DNA from: Owenia fusiformis
Lineage: Eukaryota > Annelida > Polychaeta > Sabellida > Oweniidae
NCBI GenBank assembly: GCA_903813345.2
Contig: CAIIXF020000001.1
Location: 35,557,366 to 35,621,365 of the forward strand
Length of the DNA: 64,000 bases
Reading direction: 5' to 3'
The notes beneath the pieces were generated by a model. The model worked only from the letters and a program-made list of their open reading frames with translations, made no database searches and was not told the DNA's origin. The translations under genes were made by a program, and so were the position numbers. How positions within the stretch are numbered: position 1 is the first letter of the stretch; every line of letters begins with the position of its first letter. Of the stretch, positions 2,189 through 52,712 are shown in pieces.

Positions 2189-3095
2189 GCTGTCAAGTTT
2201 CCCGCGAATGGCGGGATTATCCCGTGAATTTGATCAAAATTAGGCTAATTCGCGTGTCCCGCAATGTCCCGCGAAGTCCCGCAAATGTCGGCCTTGACCT
2301 CCGCGAATTTCCGAAATTGTTGCAATCCTCTATATTGTGATTATCTTATCTTATATAAGAAGTTTTTGCACTTTTGAGGAGTAAAGTTTACCTAACTTTA
2401 AGTACCCAGCATGCTTTTGTTTGGTATCAAAATAAAGAGGAAGGGTTCAACTTTCATTTTAATTACGATAATAGGGATGTAGGTCATAAATTGTTCCAAC
2501 GTTGGCCTTTTTACTACGCGTGTGGCAAATGAGAACTGAGCGAATGTTAGCAAACGCGAGTTACAATAAATGGACGCTGACATCTAGAAAAGTAACCTGA
2601 CTCTCTATAATTTGATGTAGATTAATTGAACCCCTATATCATGGACTTTCAATTGAAAGCCCATGCCTATATGAACAGGTAATATATATATATAATACTA
2701 TGGGGGAAAGCGTTTCATAGTTGGTCACGAACGCCATAAGTGCAAAGTATTGTTCAGAATTTTTTTACCAATCACGCAAATCCCTTGCATGTCCAGGGAC
2801 ATCCTGCAAATTTAGGTGGATGTCCCGCAAAATGCTGCAAATCTAGGGTACTTTGTCTAAAAATCTGTCCCTCTATGAAGTCTTTGGTGGTTAAACTGTT
2901 AACTGTCCCGCAATTAGGTTGTTTGTCCCTCGAATGGTCCCGCGAAATCCCGCGAATTTGATAAAAAAAAGGCCTATTAGCTCAATCACGCAAGTCCCGC
3001 GAAATCCCGCGAATTTAGTAGATGTCCCGCAAAATCCCGCGAATTTTGGGCACTGGGTCTAAAAAATCTGTCCCGCGAGAAATTCTTTGGGGGTT
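2189..3095. repeat. TCCCGCGAA-rich insertion
   Basis: A roughly 0.9-kb block interrupts the AGGTCA-rich repeat: 'gaaatttcag' precedes it and 'actgaaattt' follows it. It starts 'ctgtcaag' and ends 'gttgacag', a short inverted match. Its two ends are rich in the short word TCCCGCGAA and variants (2205-2290 and 2820-3070), standing out in GC content from the AT-rich surroundings. A 26-bp palindrome (2640-2665) lies inside. No ORF was recognised, so this looks like a non-autonomous insertion of unknown class. Confidence 0.5.
2640..2665. mobile_element. 26-bp palindromic micro-insertion, 7-bp target duplication
   Basis: Starts CATGGACTTTCAA and continues TTGAAAGCCCATG, a near-perfect palindrome with one mismatch. 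It is flanked directly by CCTATAT at 2633-2639 and CCTATAT at 2666-2672, a perfect 7-bp direct repeat. Two further insertions of the same design are at 41302-41338 and 52507-52533. The flanking duplication implies insertion by a transposase; the element has no room for anything but paired ends. The family is not one I recognise. Confidence 0.75.
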
Positions 3096-7699: not shown

Positions 7700-8523
7700 G
7701 TAAGTCACTCCATAGCATGTAGCCTACATGTATAATAATATAAATAAATTTTTGTGACTGCAAAAAATATGATCAGTTTTCATATATGATCAAAATAAAA
7801 AGATGAAATTGTTCAACTTATTTTATAGGTTTATTATCTTAGTATTACACCCCCTCCCACCCACAATAGTATTTAGGTAACCAGGTTGAATAGGAGGTTG
7901 AGAAGGGTTAATCTGGTGCAATGCTGGTGCAAGATGTCCTTCATATATGTAGTTATCTTAGCAAAATACTGAATAATTATTTGCTTGTTTACATAGTTGT
8001 TCATTTGAGATTTTCTGTGTAAATGGTCCACCCCAATCTCCTATTAATGCAGCATGTTCGATTACTAGCACCATTATGTAAATCTTGAATATTACGAGTA
8101 ATTTAATAATTTAGCCGTGAGCTATAGCAAAGTCAATGTACGTGTGTCTGTATGTTCATCAATATTTCAAAATATTACAAAATCATAATCTCGATACGAA
8201 AGGATAACGCTGTATTTCAGTATTTTGGCAATCCAACATTTAGCTGCTTCAAAAATTGCTCTTTAGTTCATCACTTCATTTTTGCAAATATACCATGTGA
8301 AACTGCATTAGTCATCAGGTTTCATTAGTTCTACTGAAATACTCCAAGTTCATTTGTTTTTAGGCTTTTCTTTCTCAAGACAGATGTCATAAAAGCTAGA
8401 GAAGTGAAACGATCCAGGTTTTAAAATTAGCGCTTAATTGATTGCAAATGCTGATTGTAATTTAATTTTCAAAGCAAAAGATTTAATCCATTATTTGTAA
8501 AGAATTGCACTGATTTGAATAAC

Positions 8524-8662: not shown

Positions 8663-9439
8663 CTAAAATTCATTCCATTAGTGTTGCTGTTAATAACTGT
8701 ACTTTACTCTTCAACAAATCAATATTCTAAGCTCCCCTTTCACAATGGCTCAATGGATTATATATTTGAACAATTCAACTTATATTTATTCTAGAAATTT
8801 TAAGCGCCACAAATAGTATAAGTCTATAGCAACTACATAAACGAAATTACAAGTCCTGAAAGGTACACAAATCACACTTTTCCAAGCATACATTTTAGTT
8901 GCACAAAGCAAGCATATGTAAAACTGCTTATCATGTACACATGAGGTAAGGAACTTTTATAATTAATAGCAAGAAACAGATAATTGACTATCAACTGCCA
9001 ATATGGAGATAACAAATCCATATGCAGCATACCAATCTAGCATCCGTCATATTGAATCAATGCATCATATCAAAATCAATATAAAAGCAGCCAAGTTTAT
9101 ATTTGAGTATTTGTTGCATTCCAAAGAATCTGCCACATCTAATTAAGATCCTGTGCAACTTTTGCAATGCACGACTGTCTAGTAACACGGACTTTAAGAA
9201 CTTTTACAGGTCCGTGCTAGTAACTTGTATATATGAGATCCACATGCAGGCTGTATGGTCAGAAGGTGCAATCAAGATAAACACATTTTCAATAGTGTAA
9301 TGTATGTATGATATCAATATACAAACTTAATTTTCTTTCAATATGTCAATTAACATGTTTACTATTCCAGGATGGTGTTTCTCTGAAAATAACAACAAGT
9401 TACTTACTAATGGGCCTAGCTATAGCTCAAGAAAACAAC

Positions 9440-10747
9440 ATGGGTTTAATGAGGAGAAATTGTTCCATGAAGCGGGTATTCTTGATCTTGGCAGGATTGT
9501 TAGCGATACACATAGTTGTGATGACACTGTTCGATATATACCGACCACCCCTAACTGATTTCCCAGATAATGAACCTGGTTATGGAGACTGTCCTGCGTG
9601 TATAACTAGGCACCCTAGAAAGAGCAATTGCAAAGGATGTTTCCCTATCGCATACCCAAACATACTTAACAATGGGAAGATGTGCGAGACTGGGAAATCA
9701 CTAGACTTTATGATTCTGATAGCATCTGAACCAGAACATGTTAAACATAGAGAGGCTATCAGAGACAGTTGGGTATCTAAGAATGCAAAATATGAAAATG
9801 TTACTTTCAAATATGCTTTCATCATGGGGTTGGATCATTCCAATAATACTGCAAATGCAAATGTATTAACAGAAGCAGACACCTCAAATGATATCATACA
9901 GTATAATTTTGTGGAACATTTTCGCAATGATACAATAAAGGGAGTTCTAGCTCTAAATTGGGCTGTGCAGTTTTGTCAAAATGCCAATATTTTGATCAAA
10001 GTTGATGATGATGTATTTCTTAACATTCCTAACCTAAAGGACACATTAGACAAGACACCATTGGATAAAACTGTTGCAGGACATTGGCTAGCCTCCAGGG
10101 GCCCAGTGAGGACTGAAAAATCAAAGGCGTATGTCCCATATTCATACTTTCCTGAAAGTAGCTTACCTGAATACATCTCCAGTTCTATGTATTTGATGAC
10201 ATATGAAACAGCCGTGGAGGTTGTGAAAACTGTGCCTGACACCCCATTTTTCCATCTTGAGGGGGTATATATATCTTTCGTCATACATAAAATTGGTTAT
10301 GGGGTGAAACAACTTGATGGTTTTAACAATTTCCAAGTACACCCCAATCCCCAATACTACTGCTCATGTCTCACTACCAGTCAGGAACTCGAGCCTGAAG
10401 ACGTGACTATGATCTGGGATGGAATGCGGTTAGCAGGCTGTACTGAACAAAGGGTCAGATGTAAGACGTCTTATACTCCCTACATCGACGTCACCTGGTG
10501 CCGCTACTGGTGGTGGAGGCATACTATCTGGCTCATAGCCAAATGGACGTTCATCATTACAATGTGTATTAATATACCTCTGGGTGGTCTATTAAACTAC
10601 CTCGGCAGTAGAGGTGTGTATTTGAACGCCCTGCATAAGGCTCTCTACTTGGGTGACACTGACGGACTAGTGGAGCATGCCAAAGATGGGAGATCGTTGA
10701 GAGATATCGTAAGCTCAAACCCACCCACACTCATTAAAAATGTCTAA
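9440..10747 (+). CDS. GT31 beta-1,3-galactosyltransferase-like protein, gene 1
   Basis: A Golgi glycosyltransferase-like protein of the GT31 (B3GalT/B3GnT) family; such enzymes use UDP-sugars to extend glycans. Start chosen at 9440 (AACATGG, good Kozak context): it gives a 435-aa type II protein with MRRNCSMKR before a membrane anchor (about residues 13-31). An upstream in-frame ATG at 9410 is possible; the exon begins after an AG at 9370. Visible blocks: HREAIRDSW (about 103-111), KVDDDVF with the metal-binding DxD (189-191), and FFHLEGVY (about 270-277). Three NxT/S sites and a CxxC...CxxC cluster lie near the stem. The usual ED of the EDVY motif is EG here, and the glycine-rich block before it is SSSMY. 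A second hydrophobic segment lies near residues 361-389. Gene 2 at 26608 is its paralogue. Confidence 0.85.
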   Translation: MGLMRRNCSMKRVFLILAGLLAIHIVVMTLFDIYRPPLTDFPDNEPGYGDCPACITRHPRKSNCKGCFPIAYPNILNNGKMCETGKSLDFMILIASEPEHVKHREAIRDSWVSKNAKYENVTFKYAFIMGLDHSNNTANANVLTEADTSNDIIQYNFVEHFRNDTIKGVLALNWAVQFCQNANILIKVDDDVFLNIPNLKDTLDKTPLDKTVAGHWLASRGPVRTEKSKAYVPYSYFPESSLPEYISSSMYLMTYETAVEVVKTVPDTPFFHLEGVYISFVIHKIGYGVKQLDGFNNFQVHPNPQYYCSCLTTSQELEPEDVTMIWDGMRLAGCTEQRVRCKTSYTPYIDVTWCRYWWWRHTIWLIAKWTFIITMCINIPLGGLLNYLGSRGVYLNALHKALYLGDTDGLVEHAKDGRSLRDIVSSNPPTLIKNV

Positions 10748-11640: not shown

Positions 11641-14600
11641 ATGTGGTTTACATCTTTGGTATTAACTGTTGTAGTCTTGCTCCATACATCTCTTGGTCAA
11701 GGTAAGTTGTTCCTTATACACAGCTATAACTAGAATAAAATTGTTTAGTGTTGCGTTCGGTGGCAGTTATTCGAGGCTGTTGCGTCATAAATTTGAAATA
11801 TCGAGAGGGTGATCAAATGGAGCTGAAACATATGTAGACATATAGGGATACAGGAATATGCCTGGTCTGCATGGTCCGATGTGAAGCCATCGATTCCAAG
11901 GCGTCTAATTTTTACAATGGGTCTTTTGATTTGGTAACTTTTGAACATAAAATATTTGACGTGGGTAAGCTTACTTGTCTCGCAATTCACTGGTGATCCA
12001 CTCGATTACGCTGGTTACCAAAACGAACCGTTTCGGTAACAAAATGTCGGAACGTCGAAGGTACGATTTTTCTTTTTTCTTTATTTCACGCGTTGTAGGC
12101 AGAATCCCCACGACGTTTTTTCTGACAAGATATATCAGTATCATATGTTTTAGAAAATGTACATGTTTGCGAAAAAATGCAGATCTTAACTGTTTTTCGA
12201 AAAACCGTTTATGTAACTTAAGTGAGGAAGTAAATCGACGATTCTGTTGTCTTTTGAACTATTTTTTCGCAAATATGTACAATTTCTTAAACATATGATA
12301 GCCTACTGATGATACACGTTTGTGTTAAGAAATGTCGTGGAAATTCTGCCTACAACCATGCTACAACGTGTAAAATAAGGAAACGAGAAAAATCGTACCT
12401 TCGATGTTCCGACATTTTGTTACCAAAACGGTTCGTTTTGGTAACCAGCGTAATCGAGTGGATCACCAGTGCAATTGTACCGTCAAACGTGAATGGGGCA
12501 ACTGTAACATTCAATTGAAAAACCTGCAACTTCAACAATATACGTCAGAGTGTACTTTTTCCAACAGAGTGTGGGACGTATGTCAGGGTGTCTGACCAGA
12601 AGTACGTCTGTCTGACCAATCCATATGAACTATATTACTGTGGGGCTGGACGCGCCATACCTTCCTGGTACAGCAATGGTCCTTCGAACCCGTGTGTATG
12701 TAGGGTTGTCCCGCTGCCGATATTACGCACCATTTGCCCATATCCCCCTGGCGAGGTACCAGAAACTACGGAACCAACAGCTCAACCTCCGTTCCTCGTA
12801 CCAGCCCTGGGAACAATAGGTGATTTAGGTAAGGATTTTCCTAAACTTCAACTAAGTGCCATCGATATTTCGATTTCTTGTCAAATTTGAATATGAAATT
12901 TATTCCAAGAGAAAATTATGGACAATGGATTATAACCCTTACCAATCATTTACCAACAAGAAATACGGTTTTGTGCCATGATACTATAGTATTCATTGAA
13001 ACGGTCAAAGCCGATAGCCCTGAATGAAGATTTTACGTACTAGTATATATATACAGGTTATTTGACTCGAGTCAAACACTTATATTGGCGTTATTTAATG
13101 AGAGGGATGGAATATGAGTTTTATTCCGAGGGAAAATATGATATTGGCCAAGGAAAACCTCATATTCCCGAGGGCGATAGTCCAAGTAGGCTAATATTTT
13201 CTTGAGTCAAGGAAAGAATTCATTATCCATCACGACCATCTAACCTAGCATTTATTGCATAATATTTTTTCTGAAACTTATTTATTTCAAACTTTTGTAT
13301 GTCATCAGCCTATTACCTAAACCCGATGATGGTGATACAAAATGATACAATTGATCATTTAAAAAACGAGAAATCCCATGAATAGTTCTGTTACGGGATC
13401 TGGTACGGGATTTTGGCTTCGGGATCAAATACGGGATCTAATACAAGGAAAGCATGTTATTATGGACTCAATTTTTATTTTTAGGATGTCCCGATCCGTT
13501 TTCCAGTTACAAAAATGTAAAGCGCCAACTGAGTACACGCCACAGCCTACCACTGACAGGGTACCTAGGCTTCCTCACCCCCGAGGACGAGTGTAAGTTC
13601 CACTGTCTCTCGGTGGGAACATGTGCCGCGGCGATGTACGACAGGGCCAAACAAGTATGTCTAGGATTCACCTCACAAGCAAAGCAAGACGAGAAGCGAT
13701 CAGACGTTTGCTGCGAGTACTGGGAAAAACAATGTTGTACCGCTGATTTTGAAATCCCTAAGGCTGGTTCTGGTGGGAGCCGTAAACCTGGAGGTGAATC
13801 AACGACTACTGTGTCATCTCAAGGAGCTCAGCTGCCTAATACACCCGGAGCACAAATCGCAGGAACGCCTGGAGCACAATTCCCTGGAACTCCAAGGGCG
13901 CAACTTCCAGGTACGCCAGGAGCCCAACTTCCAGGTACGCCAGGAGCACAATTTCAAGGTTCACCGAGAGCCAAGCAATCGGATACTTCGGGAGCAGCAC
14001 GTCTATTTCCTACAGGACCTCCACTAACAAGAACGAAACCTACTACAGGCGTTCAACCAAGAACAACCCCGCGTCCTGTTTTGGGTATAGCAGCATTCTC
14101 ATCAGGTATTAGTCATGGCCAAAGCTTCAATTTTTCTATATATGAAATTTTGGCGAGGCAGGCTGCCTCATGCCTGGCTGGCTACGGCCATGGCCGTAAA
14201 ATCTACTTAGAACAGCGTCAAAAACGGCTTCGAACGGCGTCAAAAAAATGTTATTCGTCAAAAATGATGGAGAACGATTTCAAACGGCGTAAAAAATGAG
14301 TTTTACTGCCGTCAAAACAGTGATATGGCTGGCCATCTGGACCAACGTATCGTCATACTTTTAACGCCGTAAAATCTACTTCTAACGCAGTAAAAACGAT
14401 TTTATACACCGTAAAGAATTACTTTTAACGCCACTTAAAATGATTTTGTACGCCGTCAAAACTGATTTTTTAATAAATTACGTCTGGACGGACGTAATAT
14501 TACGTCTGCATGGGCGTAATTAACGCCTACACAACCGTAAACAAGGCGTGCATACATAGGGTAGGTTGGCAAACCATATGTGACTGTCTATGTGACACGT

Positions 14601-17782: not shown

Positions 17783-17944
17783 CACTGGTGATCCACTCGA
17801 TTACGCTGATTACCGAAACGGTTCGTTTTGGTAACAAAATGTCGGAACATCGAAGGTACGATTTTTCGTTTTTCCTTATTTCACGCGTTTTGTTACCAAA
17901 ACGAACCGTTTTGGTAACCAGCGTAATCGAGCGGATCCCCAGTG
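17783..17944. mobile_element. Palindromic MITE, CACTGG ends, 5-bp target duplication (short copy)
   Basis: 162 bp with the same ends as 11988-12471, starting CACTGGTGATCCACTCGATT and ending in CCCCAGTG. It is flanked by AAATA on both sides (17778-17782 and 17945-17949). The inner part is mostly lost, leaving the two arms joined at 'tttcacgcgtt'. This copy confirms the element ends and the 5-bp duplication independently of the long copy. Confidence 0.8.
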
Positions 17945-18489: not shown

Positions 18490-18690
18490 ATGCGATTGTC
18501 TAAATGCATGAATTACAGCTTCATTTAAAAATCAAATTCCAAATCGAGAGCATTTCTAAAAGCTAGACTATATTGTCTAAATTTGTGCCTAATGATAATC
18601 CGCAACATGACTTATACGTTAGTTTAAATCAATAAAACAAAAAACTCGTATCCATTTTGTTACATTGACGTTACTATGTAAGTGTCCCAT
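18490..18690. repeat. Fragment of the 39.8-41.4 kb foldback family
   Basis: Matches the right arm around 41110-41290 in order: 'caaattccaaatcga', 'gactatatt', 'tttgtgcc', 'ataatc', 'cttgactta'-like words, then 'ccattttgttacattgacgtt'. The match stops after 'gacgtt'. No second arm is nearby, so this is a single-arm remnant. Confidence 0.6.
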
Positions 18691-26607: not shown

Positions 26608-27900
26608 ATGATCAAGATGTCACCATGTCCCTCCATCAGTCGCAGGCAATTGTTGTTTACTCTCTCTGCCTGCTCCATATTGGTAATTACTCTTCAATTG
26701 ATATCAACTAAAACTATGATCTTCCAACCCAAAGTTACCGTCCAGTTATCGTCCACCACAGATGCATGCGCGACGTGTATAACTTCATACAACCGACCTG
26801 AAACATGTGATAATTGTTTCGCCCACAACTTTAACTACACGATTAATAACAGAAATCTATGCAAAAGTATACCTGGCTCGCCTAGGGTAGAAATACTTGT
26901 CTTGGTCACATCATCGGCTCATGAAAAAGACAGGAGAGATGCAATACGAAATACATGGGGTGTAGTTGCATCACCTTCAAGTAGTTTACGACTAGCTTTT
27001 TTACTAGGAAAACATTCCAACGATACTGTCAATGCTTTACTTAGAGAAGAGAATAAACTCCACTATGATCTCATACAAGAGGATTTTGAAGATAGCTACA
27101 TGAACTTAACTCTGAAATCCGTCATGGCCCTTAAATGGGCTGTGAACTTTTGCAAAAATACCGATTACATTATGAAAACCGACAGTGATATGTTTATCAA
27201 CCTTGACAATCTGAAGGACATCTTGAAAGAAAATCCTCTAGGGAATGAAATTGGTGGCTTTGCAAAGCCACCCGAAAGTCCCATAAGAGACCCACATTCA
27301 AAATGGTATACACCAGAATCCTTTTATCCTAACTCAACATTCCCATGGACATTTTCAGGAACAGGATATGTCATGAAATATGAAGTAGCAAAAGATGTAC
27401 TCGCCATGAGTAAAAACACTCCATTTTTTCATCTTGAGGATATCTACATAGCATTTAACATACACAAACTTGGTTATGGAGTTAAATTTCTAGATGGGTT
27501 TAGCACTGATAGGACTTTCCTAGACCCAACATACTACTGTGCCTGCGTTACCTCAAGCCACCAACTGCTGCCTAGAGACCTATATCAAATCTGGAAAGAA
27601 ATGGATGATATGAAATGCTCCGTCGTTCGCAAAAGTTTGAGATTTGGCAATCAATGTCGCAATCTTCACATTAAGCATACAATGTGGGTCATTCTAAAGT
27701 ATGGACTCATAGGAATTTTAGTAATTAATATACCTTTATATGTCTTATTGACATATCTAGGGAGACAAGGAAAATTTATTAATTCTTATCATAAGACATT
27801 GTACTCTTTGAGTCAATTTCGAGATACAAGTAGTCCACCGAAAGATTTCAATGAATTTATGGAAAAGATGAGTGGAAGTACACATCTCAATCAAAAATGA
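26608..27900 (+). CDS. GT31 beta-1,3-galactosyltransferase-like protein, gene 2
   Basis: A 430-aa type II membrane protein of the GT31 family, predicted to act in the Golgi on glycans. Start at 26608; a second ATG three codons on is equally usable. The coding exon follows an AG acceptor near 26550, so the upstream part is a 5' untranslated exon. Order: short basic tail with SRRQ, anchor (about 15-33), Cys cluster (ACATC, CDNC), RRDAIRNTWG (109-118), TDSDMF with the DxD (192-194), SGTGYVM (250-256), FFHLEDIY with the conserved ED (278-279), and a second hydrophobic segment (about 359-383). It shares the Cys cluster, the C-terminal hydrophobic segment and LGYGVKFLDGF-like text with gene 1, so they are local paralogues. 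Unlike gene 1 it keeps all canonical motifs. Confidence 0.9.
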   Translation: MIKMSPCPSISRRQLLFTLSACSILVITLQLISTKTMIFQPKVTVQLSSTTDACATCITSYNRPETCDNCFAHNFNYTINNRNLCKSIPGSPRVEILVLVTSSAHEKDRRDAIRNTWGVVASPSSSLRLAFLLGKHSNDTVNALLREENKLHYDLIQEDFEDSYMNLTLKSVMALKWAVNFCKNTDYIMKTDSDMFINLDNLKDILKENPLGNEIGGFAKPPESPIRDPHSKWYTPESFYPNSTFPWTFSGTGYVMKYEVAKDVLAMSKNTPFFHLEDIYIAFNIHKLGYGVKFLDGFSTDRTFLDPTYYCACVTSSHQLLPRDLYQIWKEMDDMKCSVVRKSLRFGNQCRNLHIKHTMWVILKYGLIGILVINIPLYVLLTYLGRQGKFINSYHKTLYSLSQFRDTSSPPKDFNEFMEKMSGSTHLNQK

Positions 27901-39740: not shown

Positions 39741-40039
39741 CAACGCACAAATTATCCATCATGATCACTGTTCCACAACTAGTTACTTTGACGGAACGTC
39801 AATGTAACAAAATGGATGAACTTCCTGGATTTTTTTTGTTTTCTCGATTTATTAAACCTTCTTATAAGTCATTTGACACAAAGTTAATCAATAAAGTCTA
39901 GCTTTAAGAATTTCTCTCGGTTTGGAATTCATGTATTTCAACCATCGCTTTTGTAACTTTGACGTAAGTCTGAAAGTAGCATACATGGGTAATACGTATA
40001 ACGGACTTCGTCAAAGTACCAAAAGCGAGGGACTAAATA

Positions 40040-41105
40040 CAAGGGTCGTTCGAAAAGTCTTGCACGAAAGCTTCTCATGAGGAGAGATTTTATTATTTTT
40101 ATGTGAAACTTCATACAGATATAGTATTACAAGCTTATATATATGATATTTCAGGGCCATAAACAATATACTTCCTGAGAATCATTGACTTAAAAATTTG
40201 AACCAAAGGGCCCATGGTCCATATGACGTCATTTAATGCATTGAATTGATTTTGTGAATGCCTTGATAGGCTGAAATGGTTCCGTCAATCTTTGTTCTTT
40301 CAGCTTTTAATCAGGTTATGTTATAACTAATTTATATTTAATCTAAATATGCAGTACTTAACATGTAGTCTTCCTTTTCAGTAATGCATTATACTTGTAG
40401 CATTATGTCCAGTCCATAAGTTAATGTCTGAACCGTCCTACCTATAGGATATCAAGCCTTCTCATAACTGCAGTTACCCTCAATACATTTCCCTTCTCTT
40501 ATTCCATCTTTGGAGACTCAGCAAACCCTATTGGAGTCATCATATGCAATATGTCTTTATCATGAATGAATATAACTTGACGTGTAATACTGTTTTCCCA
40601 TTTATCATGTATTCTATCAATGTTTTCTGCTCCAACTTTATTATTTCGAGCCACATTCTCCAATATTTTCTGAATTCATGAGAACTTTGATAACGTCATA
40701 AAATCAGGTGATTTTGAGATGTTTGAAGAGTATGATTACGGTCATTCTTTGACATAACCAAAGAAAACAAGATGGAAAATATTGAGATAAGATTCACATT
40801 TGCCACAATAACAATACTAGAAATTATTTAAAAAGTTTGAAGTGTATGTAAGTTAATTTAGCATGTTTAGTAACATTGATCTTTATGTGTTACTAGTTAT
40901 CTTTTACAAAATGATATGGACCATAGCGTCATCACCGTGGTTACTATAGCAACCATAAAATGTTAAGTAGTAGGCGTATATATACACGAAACTTTGGCAG
41001 TGTAAGGAAATAAGATATGGGCACATACATACCAACTATGAACACAATTGGTCCATTATTTTCACAATAAGATGTATTTGTGCAAAACTTTTTGAACAAC
41101 CCTTG
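40040..41105. mobile_element. Non-autonomous Tc1/mariner-like element nested in a foldback
   Basis: TA-CAAGGGTCGTTCGAAAAGTC at the left is mirrored by 'aactttttgaacaacccttg-TA' at the right. 1066 bp, no transposase frame. End design resembles other TA-targeting Tc1/mariner elements in this window but the sequence is a separate family from CAGGGTGG and CAAGGGGCG. Confidence 0.7.
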
Positions 41106-41301
41106 TATATTAATTGCAACTTCATTTACAAAACAAATTCCAAATCGAAAAAACTTATCAAAGTCAGACTATATTTTCTAGCTTTGTGCCAAATTATAAT
41201 CGGCAACTTGACTTATTTAAAGTAGGCTTAGATCGAGAAAACAACAAAAAACTCGTAACCAGGAAGTTCATCCATTTTGTTACATTGACGTTCCGTCAAA
41301 G

Positions 41302-41338
41302 CATGGGCTTTCAATTAGATTCTAGTTGAAAGCCCATG
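41302..41338. mobile_element. 37-bp palindromic micro-insertion, 7-bp target duplication, with empty site
   Basis: Starts CATGGGCTTTCAA and ends TTGAAAGCCCATG with an 11-bp centre. It is flanked by GTCAAAG at 41295-41301 and GTCAAAG at 41339-41345. The opposite arm of the same foldback (39781-39800, 'agttactttgacggaacgtc') has the uninterrupted site with a single copy of that 7-mer, so the insertion and its duplication can be read directly. Confidence 0.85.
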
Positions 41339-41372
41339 GTCAAAGTAACTAGTTGTGGAACAGTGATGATCA

Positions 41373-50000: not shown

Positions 50001-52712
50001 TTTCCAAATACGTAATAGAGTTTTTTCTGTTTGGCTTTGACAGGTCCCTGGCACACATATTTGAATTTGTAGTCATCTTCTTTGGTTTTATCAGCACCTG
50101 AAAAAAAGAATTATTTAAGTGCAACCATGTAGTGAGTTTGCAGTTTAACATTACATACATGTGCAGTACAAAAGGTGGCTGAGTGTTCTCAATTAAGCAT
50201 TAAAGCACAAGAATATATCCATTAGATTAGAAATAATTGAATGAATTTATTCATCATTATGTGCAGTTAAATACGAGTCTGAAGGGTGATTGTTCATGCT
50301 TGTATACAATCAAATAATCAAATGAATGCATTATTAGATTGGATCTTAATGCTCAAATCCTTTTCACACATGCCAAAAGTCCAAAACAGAGAGGAACAAG
50401 CAACATATACAGTGGAACTTGCAAATTTGAACCTATCAGTTAAAGTCTGATCTTTATGTAAAACGCAATATTTGGATGTATTTTTATTTTTATAAATTCG
50501 ACAACTGACAAGATTATGAATGCCTATATATTAAAATGACATTGTTGATAACGGTATTTCCAGTGCAGAATAAAAGCACAACAAAAAATAAAATATCATT
50601 TTGGATAAGCCAGGAGTCGAACCATGTCGAATTGCGCAGGAAACAAGCATTTTTCCCTTAGACCACAAGGGCCGAATATACAGAGAGTGGTCAATCAACG
50701 CTACCCATACAAACGGCTTTAATGTACAAGTCACATGATATTCTTACGGCGATGAATTTCCAAGAAATCGGACGGCCGGAGAACAATGAAGCAATGGAAG
50801 AAACAATCGTGATAATGACGCCTTTATCGTGAGTATTTGTGCAAATTCTATGTCCCAATTGTTCATCTGCGTATATCCTCTCAATTTAGCTCAAAATATC
50901 ACCAGGGACATCGGAACAACTCACGATTGCTTTTTATCGAGAGCTCACGGTTTAATACCTCAAACATGTCAAATATATAGCCTAGTTGTTAGTTTGCTAG
51001 ATCTGATTCTGCTTTTAATGAGGCTAATGTTCACTTACTTTTACTAAAGTCATTCAGTCTGGCATGATAGAAATAGCCTCGTTTCTGCTGAAGCTTTCCT
51101 GGACCTTCATGTGGTCTCTCGATACGCTTGTCTTTATCAGCAAGCTTCATTATGTGTTGCTTCTCTGGGTCCCTATAGCGTACTGTCCCATGTTCAAGTT
51201 CAACCAGAACTGGAGCATCAATCAACAGTTTCTGCAGTAAAGCAAAGGAATAAAATTAAGATTTGTAGGATATAAAGATTTTTTCTATGTAATCAAGAAA
51301 CAACAATAAATGAACCGACACATGGCAAAGCAATGATTTCAAAAATAAGATAATAATAAGTTTATATAGCAGTTAGGCACTACAGCAAATGAACTGACAC
51401 GAAAATACAAATAATCATCACATTTGGACATACATGTACATGTAAATCAAAAAAGTCATTTAAATATGTCTCTTAAAATGAGAAATGTTATTCAAATATC
51501 ACTTATTAGACAAAACCTGCTGTGCTTGGTGCCATATTCCATCTTGCTGTGCTATTACTATTTGAAAATAATTATAAATATATAAGCACTAGTGTCAAAG
51601 GGAAAGGACCAAAAGTTGTAATGGAACTTAGCAAGAAAAAGCAAACTCTAAGTGCATACCAGTCAAGAAAAACAAACCCCATATAGCCCAAAACCATGAT
51701 CTAATGTGAAAAGAAGCAATGTCTAATACCCCCTTTCCCCCCACCATTCAAGAACCAATATCACAATCCAAGACCAGAAGACCAGTATTATGACACTGTA
51801 TCATCGCACGTACTGCATCCCTGATGATGACACTGGGATTAAAACAACTTTGAATGGACATTGGGATTTAAAAGGGGTGTTAAATATGATACATGTATGT
51901 GTAATTTTAATTGGAATAAATGAGTATAAGAGTGATATCCTGATGTTTGTTGTTACTTATCACTTTGTTAGGATGGTGAAATTGACTTAGCTGAAATTGG
52001 TACAAACTCATTTCTGACATGGTCACTTAAATCCCTTATAACTCAGTCATCCGTGAAGGAAAATAGAAAGCTTTGGTATCATAAGAAAGAGGACTTCATA
52101 ATCTATCAGATGGTAGCTGTGAAATTTTCCTATCATTATTCATATTTGAAAAATAAGCAATCTATTGCTGGTTTCCTTTTTTGGGACACCCTGTATATCA
52201 GATTTATAAATAAAGGTACACCTATGCATCTAGACAAGGCAGTGAGAGAAGCATCAAAAGGTATGAGACCACACATTTCATTTTATTAGCCAAACCACAA
52301 GCAATCAAAAATAGACGAATGTCATTCGTGTATTATATGAATATATTTTCCACTATAACTTGTAATAAAATATTACTGTTAATTTTAGGTTACTGAACAC
52401 ATCTGGGTAAAGCTTTAGAGTTAGCATAGACAGCAGACAGGTGGGTATGTTCTGTAAAATTTAGGCACAGTCAGCACTTTCTCATAAAATAAGATATTAG
52501 TCTATCCATGGGTTTCCAATTAGAACGCCCATGGTCTATCTAAATAAAGTAGAGTATACCATTGATAGACTAGGCCTAGTGCTGACTTTGAATTTAGGTT
52601 ACAAATATGACCATACTTTTCCCTTCTGTTTTGACATTTCATCGGCATAATCCACTCTTGGGTTTATGGGGACGCCAACTTCGGGGTTCGAGGTACTAGC
52701 TGCCGTCCCCAT
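47022..52712 (-). CDS. Unrecognised 269-aa protein with myristoylation-type N-terminus
   Basis: Six exons join in phase: 52617-52712, 51039-51231, 49864-50097, 49223-49316, 48836-48946 and 47022-47103 (810 nt with stop). All junctions are GT-AG. The product starts MGTAAS, which fits the N-myristoylation pattern MGxxxS/T. It is lysine-rich and mixed charge in the middle (LVELEHGTVRYRDPEKQH, KRGYFYHARLNDF, KKLYYVFGKGANAMAVDKG, KGYVWQDNFKQPNHAYFDM). An acidic linker follows (DEEGIASDDEDTE), then a possible C-terminal beta-rich part (TVLKVQERVGLQVLKPADHI) ending in DGKWTIYSIQLAKV. No signal peptide or membrane segment. I do not recognise the family. The exon-intron fit and even phase make the gene itself convincing. 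It is head to head with the Asteroid-type gene. Confidence 0.75.
47335..47425. repeat. MITE fragment in last intron of the minus-strand gene
   Basis: 'gtaaatagaacacccttgg', 'aatgttccacttgcaagg' and 'gtgttcaatttacagagg' match the 6052-6196 and 8524-8662 family. The open frame over this region (47253-47570) is therefore not a gene. Confidence 0.45.
47840..48180. repeat. AATCC-rich degenerate palindromic repeat
   Basis: Many facing 'aatcc' and 'ggatt' words (for example 'ggaatccaatctgc', 'gaattccaatgcaaattgga') suggest a worn inverted repeat inside the last intron. Ends were not resolved. Confidence 0.3.
49411..49641 (+). mobile_element. LINE fragment (reverse transcriptase C-terminal part)
   Basis: A frame reading NEYQYLGLYLDEHLTFKKAI, then ASRALGVIIAKF and LYNSLVLPIMTYGSGI. 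The Y-x-YLG-x-x-LDE-x-LTF and PIM-x-YGS blocks are typical of the region after the polymerase active site in non-LTR retrotransposons. Only about 75 codons remain, antisense in an intron of the minus-strand gene; neither the active-site block nor an endonuclease is present. A dead 5'-truncated or internally deleted copy; clade not determined. Confidence 0.7.
50601..50676 (-). repeat. tRNA-like relic, possible SINE head
   Basis: On the minus strand a TGGTCTAAGGG word (box A-like) is followed about 40 bases later by GGTTCGACTCC (box B-like, close to the GGTTCGAATCC consensus). The anticodon arm and acceptor stem pair poorly, so it is not a working tRNA. It could be a SINE head or a decayed tRNA copy. 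Confidence 0.4.
52150..52195. repeat. Solo right end of a CAGGGTGTCC-type element
   Basis: 'ccttttttgggacaccctg' followed by TA matches the right ends of TA-targeting elements. No partner left end was found nearby. Lies in intron 1 of the minus-strand gene. Confidence 0.4.
52507..52533. mobile_element. 27-bp palindromic micro-insertion, 7-bp target duplication
   Basis: Starts CATGGGTTTCCAATT and ends GAACGCCCATG, an imperfect palindrome. Flanked by GTCTATC at 52500-52506 and GTCTATC at 52534-52540. More diverged than the copies at 2640 and 41302, yet the duplication is still perfect. Confidence 0.75.

Follow-up and report, generated by a model that had tools for sequence, protein, structure and literature searches.

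A 37-bp palindrome in the genome of the annelid Owenia fusiformis is very probably an excision footprint, left by a cut-and-paste DNA transposon whose mechanism resembles that of the P element, and the short inserts that resemble it at many hundreds of other sites would be products of the same process with different joins. The parent element is probably a member of the P superfamily, as judged from sequence; membership is graded as probable because a transposase enclosed by these ends did not turn up. In the sequence of events that we propose, a transposon, probably a relative of the ~540-bp element L029 with 31-bp inverted repeats starting CATGGGCTTTCAAYTAGA, would have inserted into a foldback, in its right arm, with a 7-bp target duplication, the duplication and the empty site both being observed. 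Transposase would then have cut at the 3' ends and, on the other strand, about 18 nt inside; about 18 nt of each end would have stayed on the chromosome as 3' tails, as the limit of retention suggests, and fill-in of these tails may have been followed by a join at which one base was added. The palindrome lies in a stretch of 64,000 nucleotides in contig 1, hereafter 'the window'; the genome searched comprises 498 Mb and all counts come from one assembly.

The 37-bp insert and its surroundings in the window

At 41295-41345 the palindrome, CATGGGCTTTCAATTAGATTCTAGTTGAAAGCCCATG, stands between two copies of GTCAAAG, and the letters of the window make the duplication exactly 7 bp long. Alignment of the foldback arms shows that the left arm carries the heptamer once, as CTTTGAC, has no insert and matches the right arm on both sides. 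The initial annotation had reported this combination of a 37-bp palindrome, a 7-bp duplication and an empty site in the same window, and each part of it is confirmed. The insert has inverted ends, a target duplication and no coding capacity, all features of MITEs; parsed against the ends of L025 and L029, it divides into two retained ends and a filler base (Table 1). A search of Rfam gave no match to the window.

Table 1. Features in the window associated with the 37-bp insert and its relatives
Feature	Positions	Strand	Basis
Host foldback, left arm	39764..39828	+	
Empty site, same 7 bp once (CTTTGAC), left foldback arm	39786..39792		
Host foldback, right arm, broken by the probable footprint and second target copy	41259..41367	-	
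Target-site duplication, left copy GTCAAAG	41295..41301		
Probable excision footprint, a 37-bp palindrome (18 nt from each of the two ends around 1 filler base)	41302..41338		Parse against L025/L029 ends
Retained transposon end, T type (CATGGGCTTTCAATTAGA), as in L029 left end	41302..41319	+	
Putative one-base filler (T) at the repair junction, assuming 18 nt kept per side	41320..41320		Inference
Retained transposon end, C type (CATGGGCTTTCAACTAGA), as in L029 right end	41321..41338	-	
Target-site duplication, right copy GTCAAAG	41339..41345		
Probable 26-bp footprint, flanks CCTATAT (2633-2639, 2666-2672)	2640..2665		
Probable 27-bp diverged footprint, flanks GTCTATC (52500-52506, 52534-52540)	52507..52533		

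Two further copies had been noted in the window, and both are real, with exact 7-bp flanks. The 10-bp left flank of the 26-bp copy is common to loci L010 and L016, so this copy may sit in a dispersed repeat. By a simple formula, about 2e-5 such structures are expected per window by chance. The 13-mer alone, at up to two mismatches, occurs 8 times in the window against 2.4 expected, a number reached in 2 of 100 shuffles, and this loose scan is weaker evidence than the flanked structures. When the window was scanned generically for palindromic inserts between exact 7-bp repeats, five rows were returned, made up of two known inserts and three unrelated ones (28154, 56158 and 56395), and none in any of five block shuffles.

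Several other features were observed in the same stretch. A 31-bp insert at 9186-9216 has exact 7-bp flanks (CTAGTAA) and ends that are 4 and 5 mismatches from the 13-mer; it is possibly an old footprint, or chance. The foldback carries an insert of ~1.07 kb (40039-41107) with inverted ends, ACAAGGGTCGTTCGAAAAGTCTTGCAC... and ACAAGGGTTGTTCAAAAAGTTTTGCAC..., adjoining TA dinucleotides, which we take to be mariner-like, and a diverged relative of the foldback arm (71-75%) lies at 18508-18672. Two long open frames, at 9308-10747 and 26608-27900, contain a galactosyltransferase domain (PF01762).

A genome-wide set of short inserts

The pattern CATGGGCTTTCAA followed by 0-30 bases and TTGAAAGCCCATG occurs at 797 places in the genome, whereas the reversed pattern, used as a control, occurs at none; the 13-mer alone occurs 5439 times (2784 + 2655; controls 0 and 1). 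When the far end is relaxed to GCCCATG there are 2411 oriented matches (1213 + 1198), of which about 817 remain once the 797 palindromic places, counted twice, are subtracted. Up to about 817 more places thus have one end exact and the other eroded or changed, an upper estimate because at least one of them, at 480173, belongs to the longer element L026 as its end. The counts rest on exact words, and hence diverged scars, such as that at 52507-52533 in the window, go uncounted. They are also inflated, since some scars have been copied inside host repeats (L010, L016), and 797 places are not 797 independent events: the same 26-mer accounts for 11 of the 50 inserts listed of the 797, and at least three of the eleven lie in copies of one repeat. 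At L065 (C1:6036246-6036283) a 25-bp unit, CATGGGCTTTCAACTA plus flank bases, occurs twice head to tail, as if the scar had undergone duplication or a second hit.

Flanks were compared at the 26 two-sided exact places in loci L001-L024. An exact 7-bp repeat is present at 20 of them (L021 and L023 belong to this number only if extra junction sequence is allowed), and no two of the twenty 7-mers are alike. Two of the remaining places match at 6 of 7 positions and four at 5 of 7, three of these four being copies of one repeat (L010, and L016 twice). Where the flanks of one-sided places were read (L037, L040, L041 and L062), the 7-bp repeat is exact in all four. With the long elements included, the repeat is exactly 7 bp in 31 and exactly 8 bp in two of the 33 cases with a flank match of at least 6; an 8-bp duplication for some short inserts was considered and proved to be an artefact of the insert ending at CAT, a stricter rule giving 7 bp. 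The flank scan yielded 26 rows with the real end word, two of them unclean footprints (the inner one at L023 and window 9186), against 0, 0, 1, 0 and 1 with five permuted words. Among 14 unpaired ends that were fetched, the 7-bp flank is repeated nearby in five and absent in nine; five further unpaired ends (L003, L004, L007, L013 and L024) have no flank repeat within 1 kb. The target itself shows a palindromic preference, TnnGTnnnACnnA, matched on average at 4.0 of 6 positions over 31 sites, against a mean of 1.65 and a maximum of 2.23 in 2000 draws of random places, and this motif places at the ends of the duplication the palindromic GT...AC that characterises Galileo targets.

Besides the window's own, an empty site was found for two of 20 footprints tested. 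That of L004 is present in the window at 12029-12098, 12356-12430 and 17824-17884, and also in L005; that of L009 is in L013 at 8244-8339, a second place carrying two gaps. Among the loci fetched, L013 had only short edge matches and the other 17 footprints had no empty site. Gap-free empty sites are also present for two long elements, L027 (in L010 and L016) and L030 (in L022 and L003). The claim that the insert derives from a transposon, carries a 7-bp duplication and is one of a genome-wide set therefore stands on 797 places and 20 exact flank pairs out of 26. It was to fail if genome copies lacked matching flanks or always lay within a single larger repeat, and neither is the case, given twenty different 7-mers. 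A chance palindrome or an assembly artefact is refuted by the counts, 797 exact places against none in the control, together with the distinct flanks and the empty sites; no point in its favour was found and we give it essentially no weight.

Junctions and retained ends

The short inserts are variable joins of the two ends, each end being kept to at most about 18 nt. Genome-wide, the number of end words falls from 5439 for the 13-mer to 1808 for CATGGGCTTTCAAYTAG (the 13-mer plus YTAG, 17 nt), 1481 at 18 nt, 813 at 19 nt and 421 at 21 nt; these retention counts cover YTAG-type ends, as distinct from the GAGA/CAGA type. With the 421, which read on to nt 21 like the L025 family, as the intact baseline, survival is 0.76 from nt 17 to nt 18 and 0.37 from nt 18 to nt 19, and we take the latter value, 37%, as near the expectation from chance or microhomology for an A. 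Since retention falls between nt 18 and nt 19, the chromosome keeps up to ~18 nt per end, a limit that lies inside the 31-bp parental repeat. A long stagger ~18 nt inside the end is thereby indicated, indirectly, and 18 fits better than 17. The P transposase leaves 17-nt 3' extensions in flies (PMC7776569).

Among the 50 two-sided inserts listed of the 797, 47 are no longer than 36 bp (2 x 18) when the pattern allowed 56, and there are 29 distinct junctions. Under a model of 18 nt per end, these 29 and the window's own comprise 10 microhomology and 11 blunt joins, seven with 1-3 bases of filler and two with at least 4 extra bases. The 22 one-sided rows listed, less 480173 (the L026 end) and two repeated junctions, give 19 distinct junctions, of which eight show microhomology, three are blunt, three have 1-3 bases and five at least 4 bases. 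The 30-bp forms (8 of 50 listed) fit annealing at CTAG or CTA, and the 26-bp form (11 of 50) fits annealing at AATT. L018 has a filler in which part of an end recurs, and L023 is compound; repeated end pieces of this kind, in both, are as expected of templated insertion. One-sided erosion is seen in many inserts. A duplicated target, partial ends and a variable repair junction, which together define an excision footprint, are thus all present, and because the ends are confined to ~18 nt of a 31-bp repeat, are often eroded and enclose varying interiors, we infer double-strand-break repair after excision.

Junctions of the same classes (microhomology, blunt joins and insertions, some templated) are described for the Drosophila element P{wa} in flies lacking Rad51 (spn-A), where the duplicated 8 bp remain together with as many as 17 nt from each end (PMC2895639). 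Many of those fly junctions are long microhomologies that have lost most of both ends (PMC2895639); this class would be missed here because exact end words were searched.

Junction variety bears directly on the proposal, made in the initial annotation, that the insert represents an undescribed class of micro-elements. Palindromes of 26-47 bp would then themselves be mobile, copied to new sites by a transposase, as their palindromic form, the 20 exact flanks of 26, their hundreds of copies, the empty sites (L004, L009 and the window's) and the prevalence of a single 26-mer might suggest. Mobile units should share an interior, and the 29 different ones found in the 50 listed places speak against the short inserts being such units; their fillers differ, one end is changed at up to ~817 places, at least three of the eleven 26-mers lie within one repeat, and the 26- and 30-bp forms are those expected from annealing at AATT, CTAG or CTA. 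A 37-mer also falls well short of the end sequence that P-type elements require (PMC1562414): to be mobile, the fly P element must have at least 138 and 216 bp at its ends, and it has been suggested that about 100 bp may suffice in Anopheles (PMC1562414). Mobility of the 37-mer is unlikely because either requirement is far longer. With no homogeneous interior of the kind expected of a MITE, and with at most ~18 nt of 31-bp ends in each insert, a micro-element class is improbable and the proposal is not upheld.

A full element might instead have been inserted once and have lost sequence at that site through slippage or abortive gap repair. Such internal deletion likewise leaves both ends between the duplication, and incomplete repair synthesis is usual after P excision in wild-type flies (PMC2895639). 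Deletion endpoints should then scatter through 540 bp, whereas retention ends near nt 18, and 276 kb of sequence (loci chosen because they hold inserts) contain no insert of 77-9000 bp with exact 7-bp flanks and both ends at up to 6 mismatches in total, one spurious 3264-bp pairing in L018 being set aside. We consider this explanation very improbable. The related suggestion that the insert is the smallest internally deleted form of a fuller transposon was right in that longer elements with the same ends exist; that it is the smallest form that moves is unsupported.

Longer elements, P-type transposases and related systems

The genome scan also found end pairs ~540 bp apart, and six such elements, of 486-643 bp, were read. 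Their flank repeats are exact 7-bp duplications in three, 8-bp in two and absent in one, so that five of the six agree with the 7-8-bp duplications of the P superfamily. L025, L028 and L029 form one family of 537-542 bp with 7-bp duplications, to which L027, with 8 bp duplicated, is related. Other interiors stand between identical 13-bp ends in L030, which is 643 bp long and has an 8-bp duplication, and in L026, which is 486 bp long and has none; the unrelated interiors of L025, L026 and L030 look as if ends had been exchanged or interiors captured. A search with L025 gave 686 candidate places, and the best 40 of the 686, which were scored, are full length at 98-100% identity, one of them without a base at each end. 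The inverted repeats of L025 are 31 bp long (1-31 against 512-542 at 97%, the match ending there), the same length as in the fly P element. One candidate, with ends 5.7 kb apart (L062 and L063), was rejected as an element because the ends are unrelated, being a footprint and a relative of L026.

A search for longer elements that share these ends and carry a transposase had been suggested. The 486-643-bp elements do share the ends; their longest stop-to-stop frame is 85 codons and no transposase was found in them. Six further pairs, 0.9-5 kb apart, are present among 100 listed places of the 421, the long pairs including C1:29922971-29928039, C1:26422262-26424372 and C1:56401828-56403967, with no match to PF21787, PF21788 or the L050 protein inside. 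P-type transposases do occur elsewhere in the genome, with PF21787 at 13 places, PF21788 at 11, and the L050 protein is matched 31 times. In L045, RNase H N, GTP-binding and RNase H C domains were recognised, and this locus matches the solved P transposase structure 6p5a at 2.5e-15; of L045 and L047 only L045 did so, L047 giving no match to a P transposase structure, and no THAP domain was matched in the two L045 frames scanned. No element that combines a P transposase with these ends came to light at the 13 PF21787 places or in the extended neighbourhoods of L045, L047, L048 and L050. Within 1.5 kb of the 13 places the end word occurs once at up to two mismatches (L054); the 8.4-kb neighbourhood of L045 holds two 2-mismatch end words oriented away from the gene, and those of L047 (10 kb), L048 (9.5 kb) and L050 (6 kb) hold nothing better than 3 mismatches.

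Four copies of a P-like transposase element, ~99% identical and internally repetitive on the left side (L046-L049), are a candidate for a recently active P-superfamily element of Owenia; none of these ends lies within the stretch read. Three open frames of 2,362-2,378 aa (G000 C331, C486 and C3:16790903) have a weak P-type GTP-binding match (28.6-29.9 bits).

The footprints could also derive from a long-stagger transposon outside the P superfamily, an explanation that overlaps ours in mechanism and differs in invoking another or undescribed transposase. No autonomous copy was found, and the end pairs 0.9-5 kb apart exist without a P-domain match inside them, both of which favour it. The 31-bp ends, the duplications of 7 or 8 bp and the GTnnnAC target indicate P and Galileo, and no further superfamily is known to us in which 17-18 nt per end stay behind after excision, which we count against this explanation; we judge it unlikely. 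Membership of the P superfamily is favoured by the 31-bp ends, the 7/8-bp duplications, the GT...AC target and the P transposases in the genome. There is a small but appreciable chance that the parent's transposase has a geometry of its own, cutting 18 nt inside the end at a target of 7 bp where the fly P element has 17 nt and 8 bp, that it may stand apart from the described P superfamily as a separate lineage, and that its scar catalogue is exceptionally large.

Among known systems, the P{wa} junctions likewise combine a duplicated target and partial inverted repeats in varied joins; they were induced in Rad51-lacking flies, and many have lost most of both ends (PMC2895639). The Owenia scars are natural, come from an annelid, number hundreds of sites in one assembly, and have a 7-bp target with ~18 nt kept. 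Galileo, a Drosophila element of the P superfamily, makes mostly 7-bp duplications, with 8 bp in three copies, at a palindromic target with the consensus GTATTAC, and the GT...AC is shared here (PMC4168063). Its ends are long and internally repetitive, in contrast to the 31-bp ends of the L025 family, and the bases flanking the target differ, with T at -6 in Owenia. Zebrafish Pdre2, which is P-like and has a P-type transposase partner, has 13-bp inverted ends starting CAT, but its duplication is 8 bp; zebrafish THAP9 excising a fly P element in fly cells is reported to leave larger flanking deletions (PMC10983969). The P-MITEs of Anopheles gambiae resemble the Owenia elements in having P-type ends and unrelated interiors, and autonomous P elements there have 27-31-bp ends, but the duplications are 8 bp; the word footprint is absent from the main text of that report (PMC1562414). 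A survey of DNA-transposon excision in rice likewise read scars, including fillers, on a genome scale, and obtained 94 putative events by comparing two species (PMC4423477), where the Owenia scars are recognisable in one genome. A search of the literature, mostly of titles and abstracts, found no genome-wide footprint catalogue from a single assembly, an absence that is not thereby proven.

Excision scars are usually studied singly or by comparison between genomes. Because up to ~18 nt of either transposon end persist in the scars of Owenia, a single assembly is enough to find them and no related genome is needed, and it is this scale that is unusual: an archive of germline break repair that is readable from a single assembly. 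For annotators there is also a warning, that clean target duplications around a short palindrome do not necessarily denote a mobile element. The set offers hundreds of outcomes of germline double-strand-break repair in an annelid, many of them independent, from a known starting structure, with which the shares of microhomology, repeated insertion and blunt joining in germline repair become directly askable.
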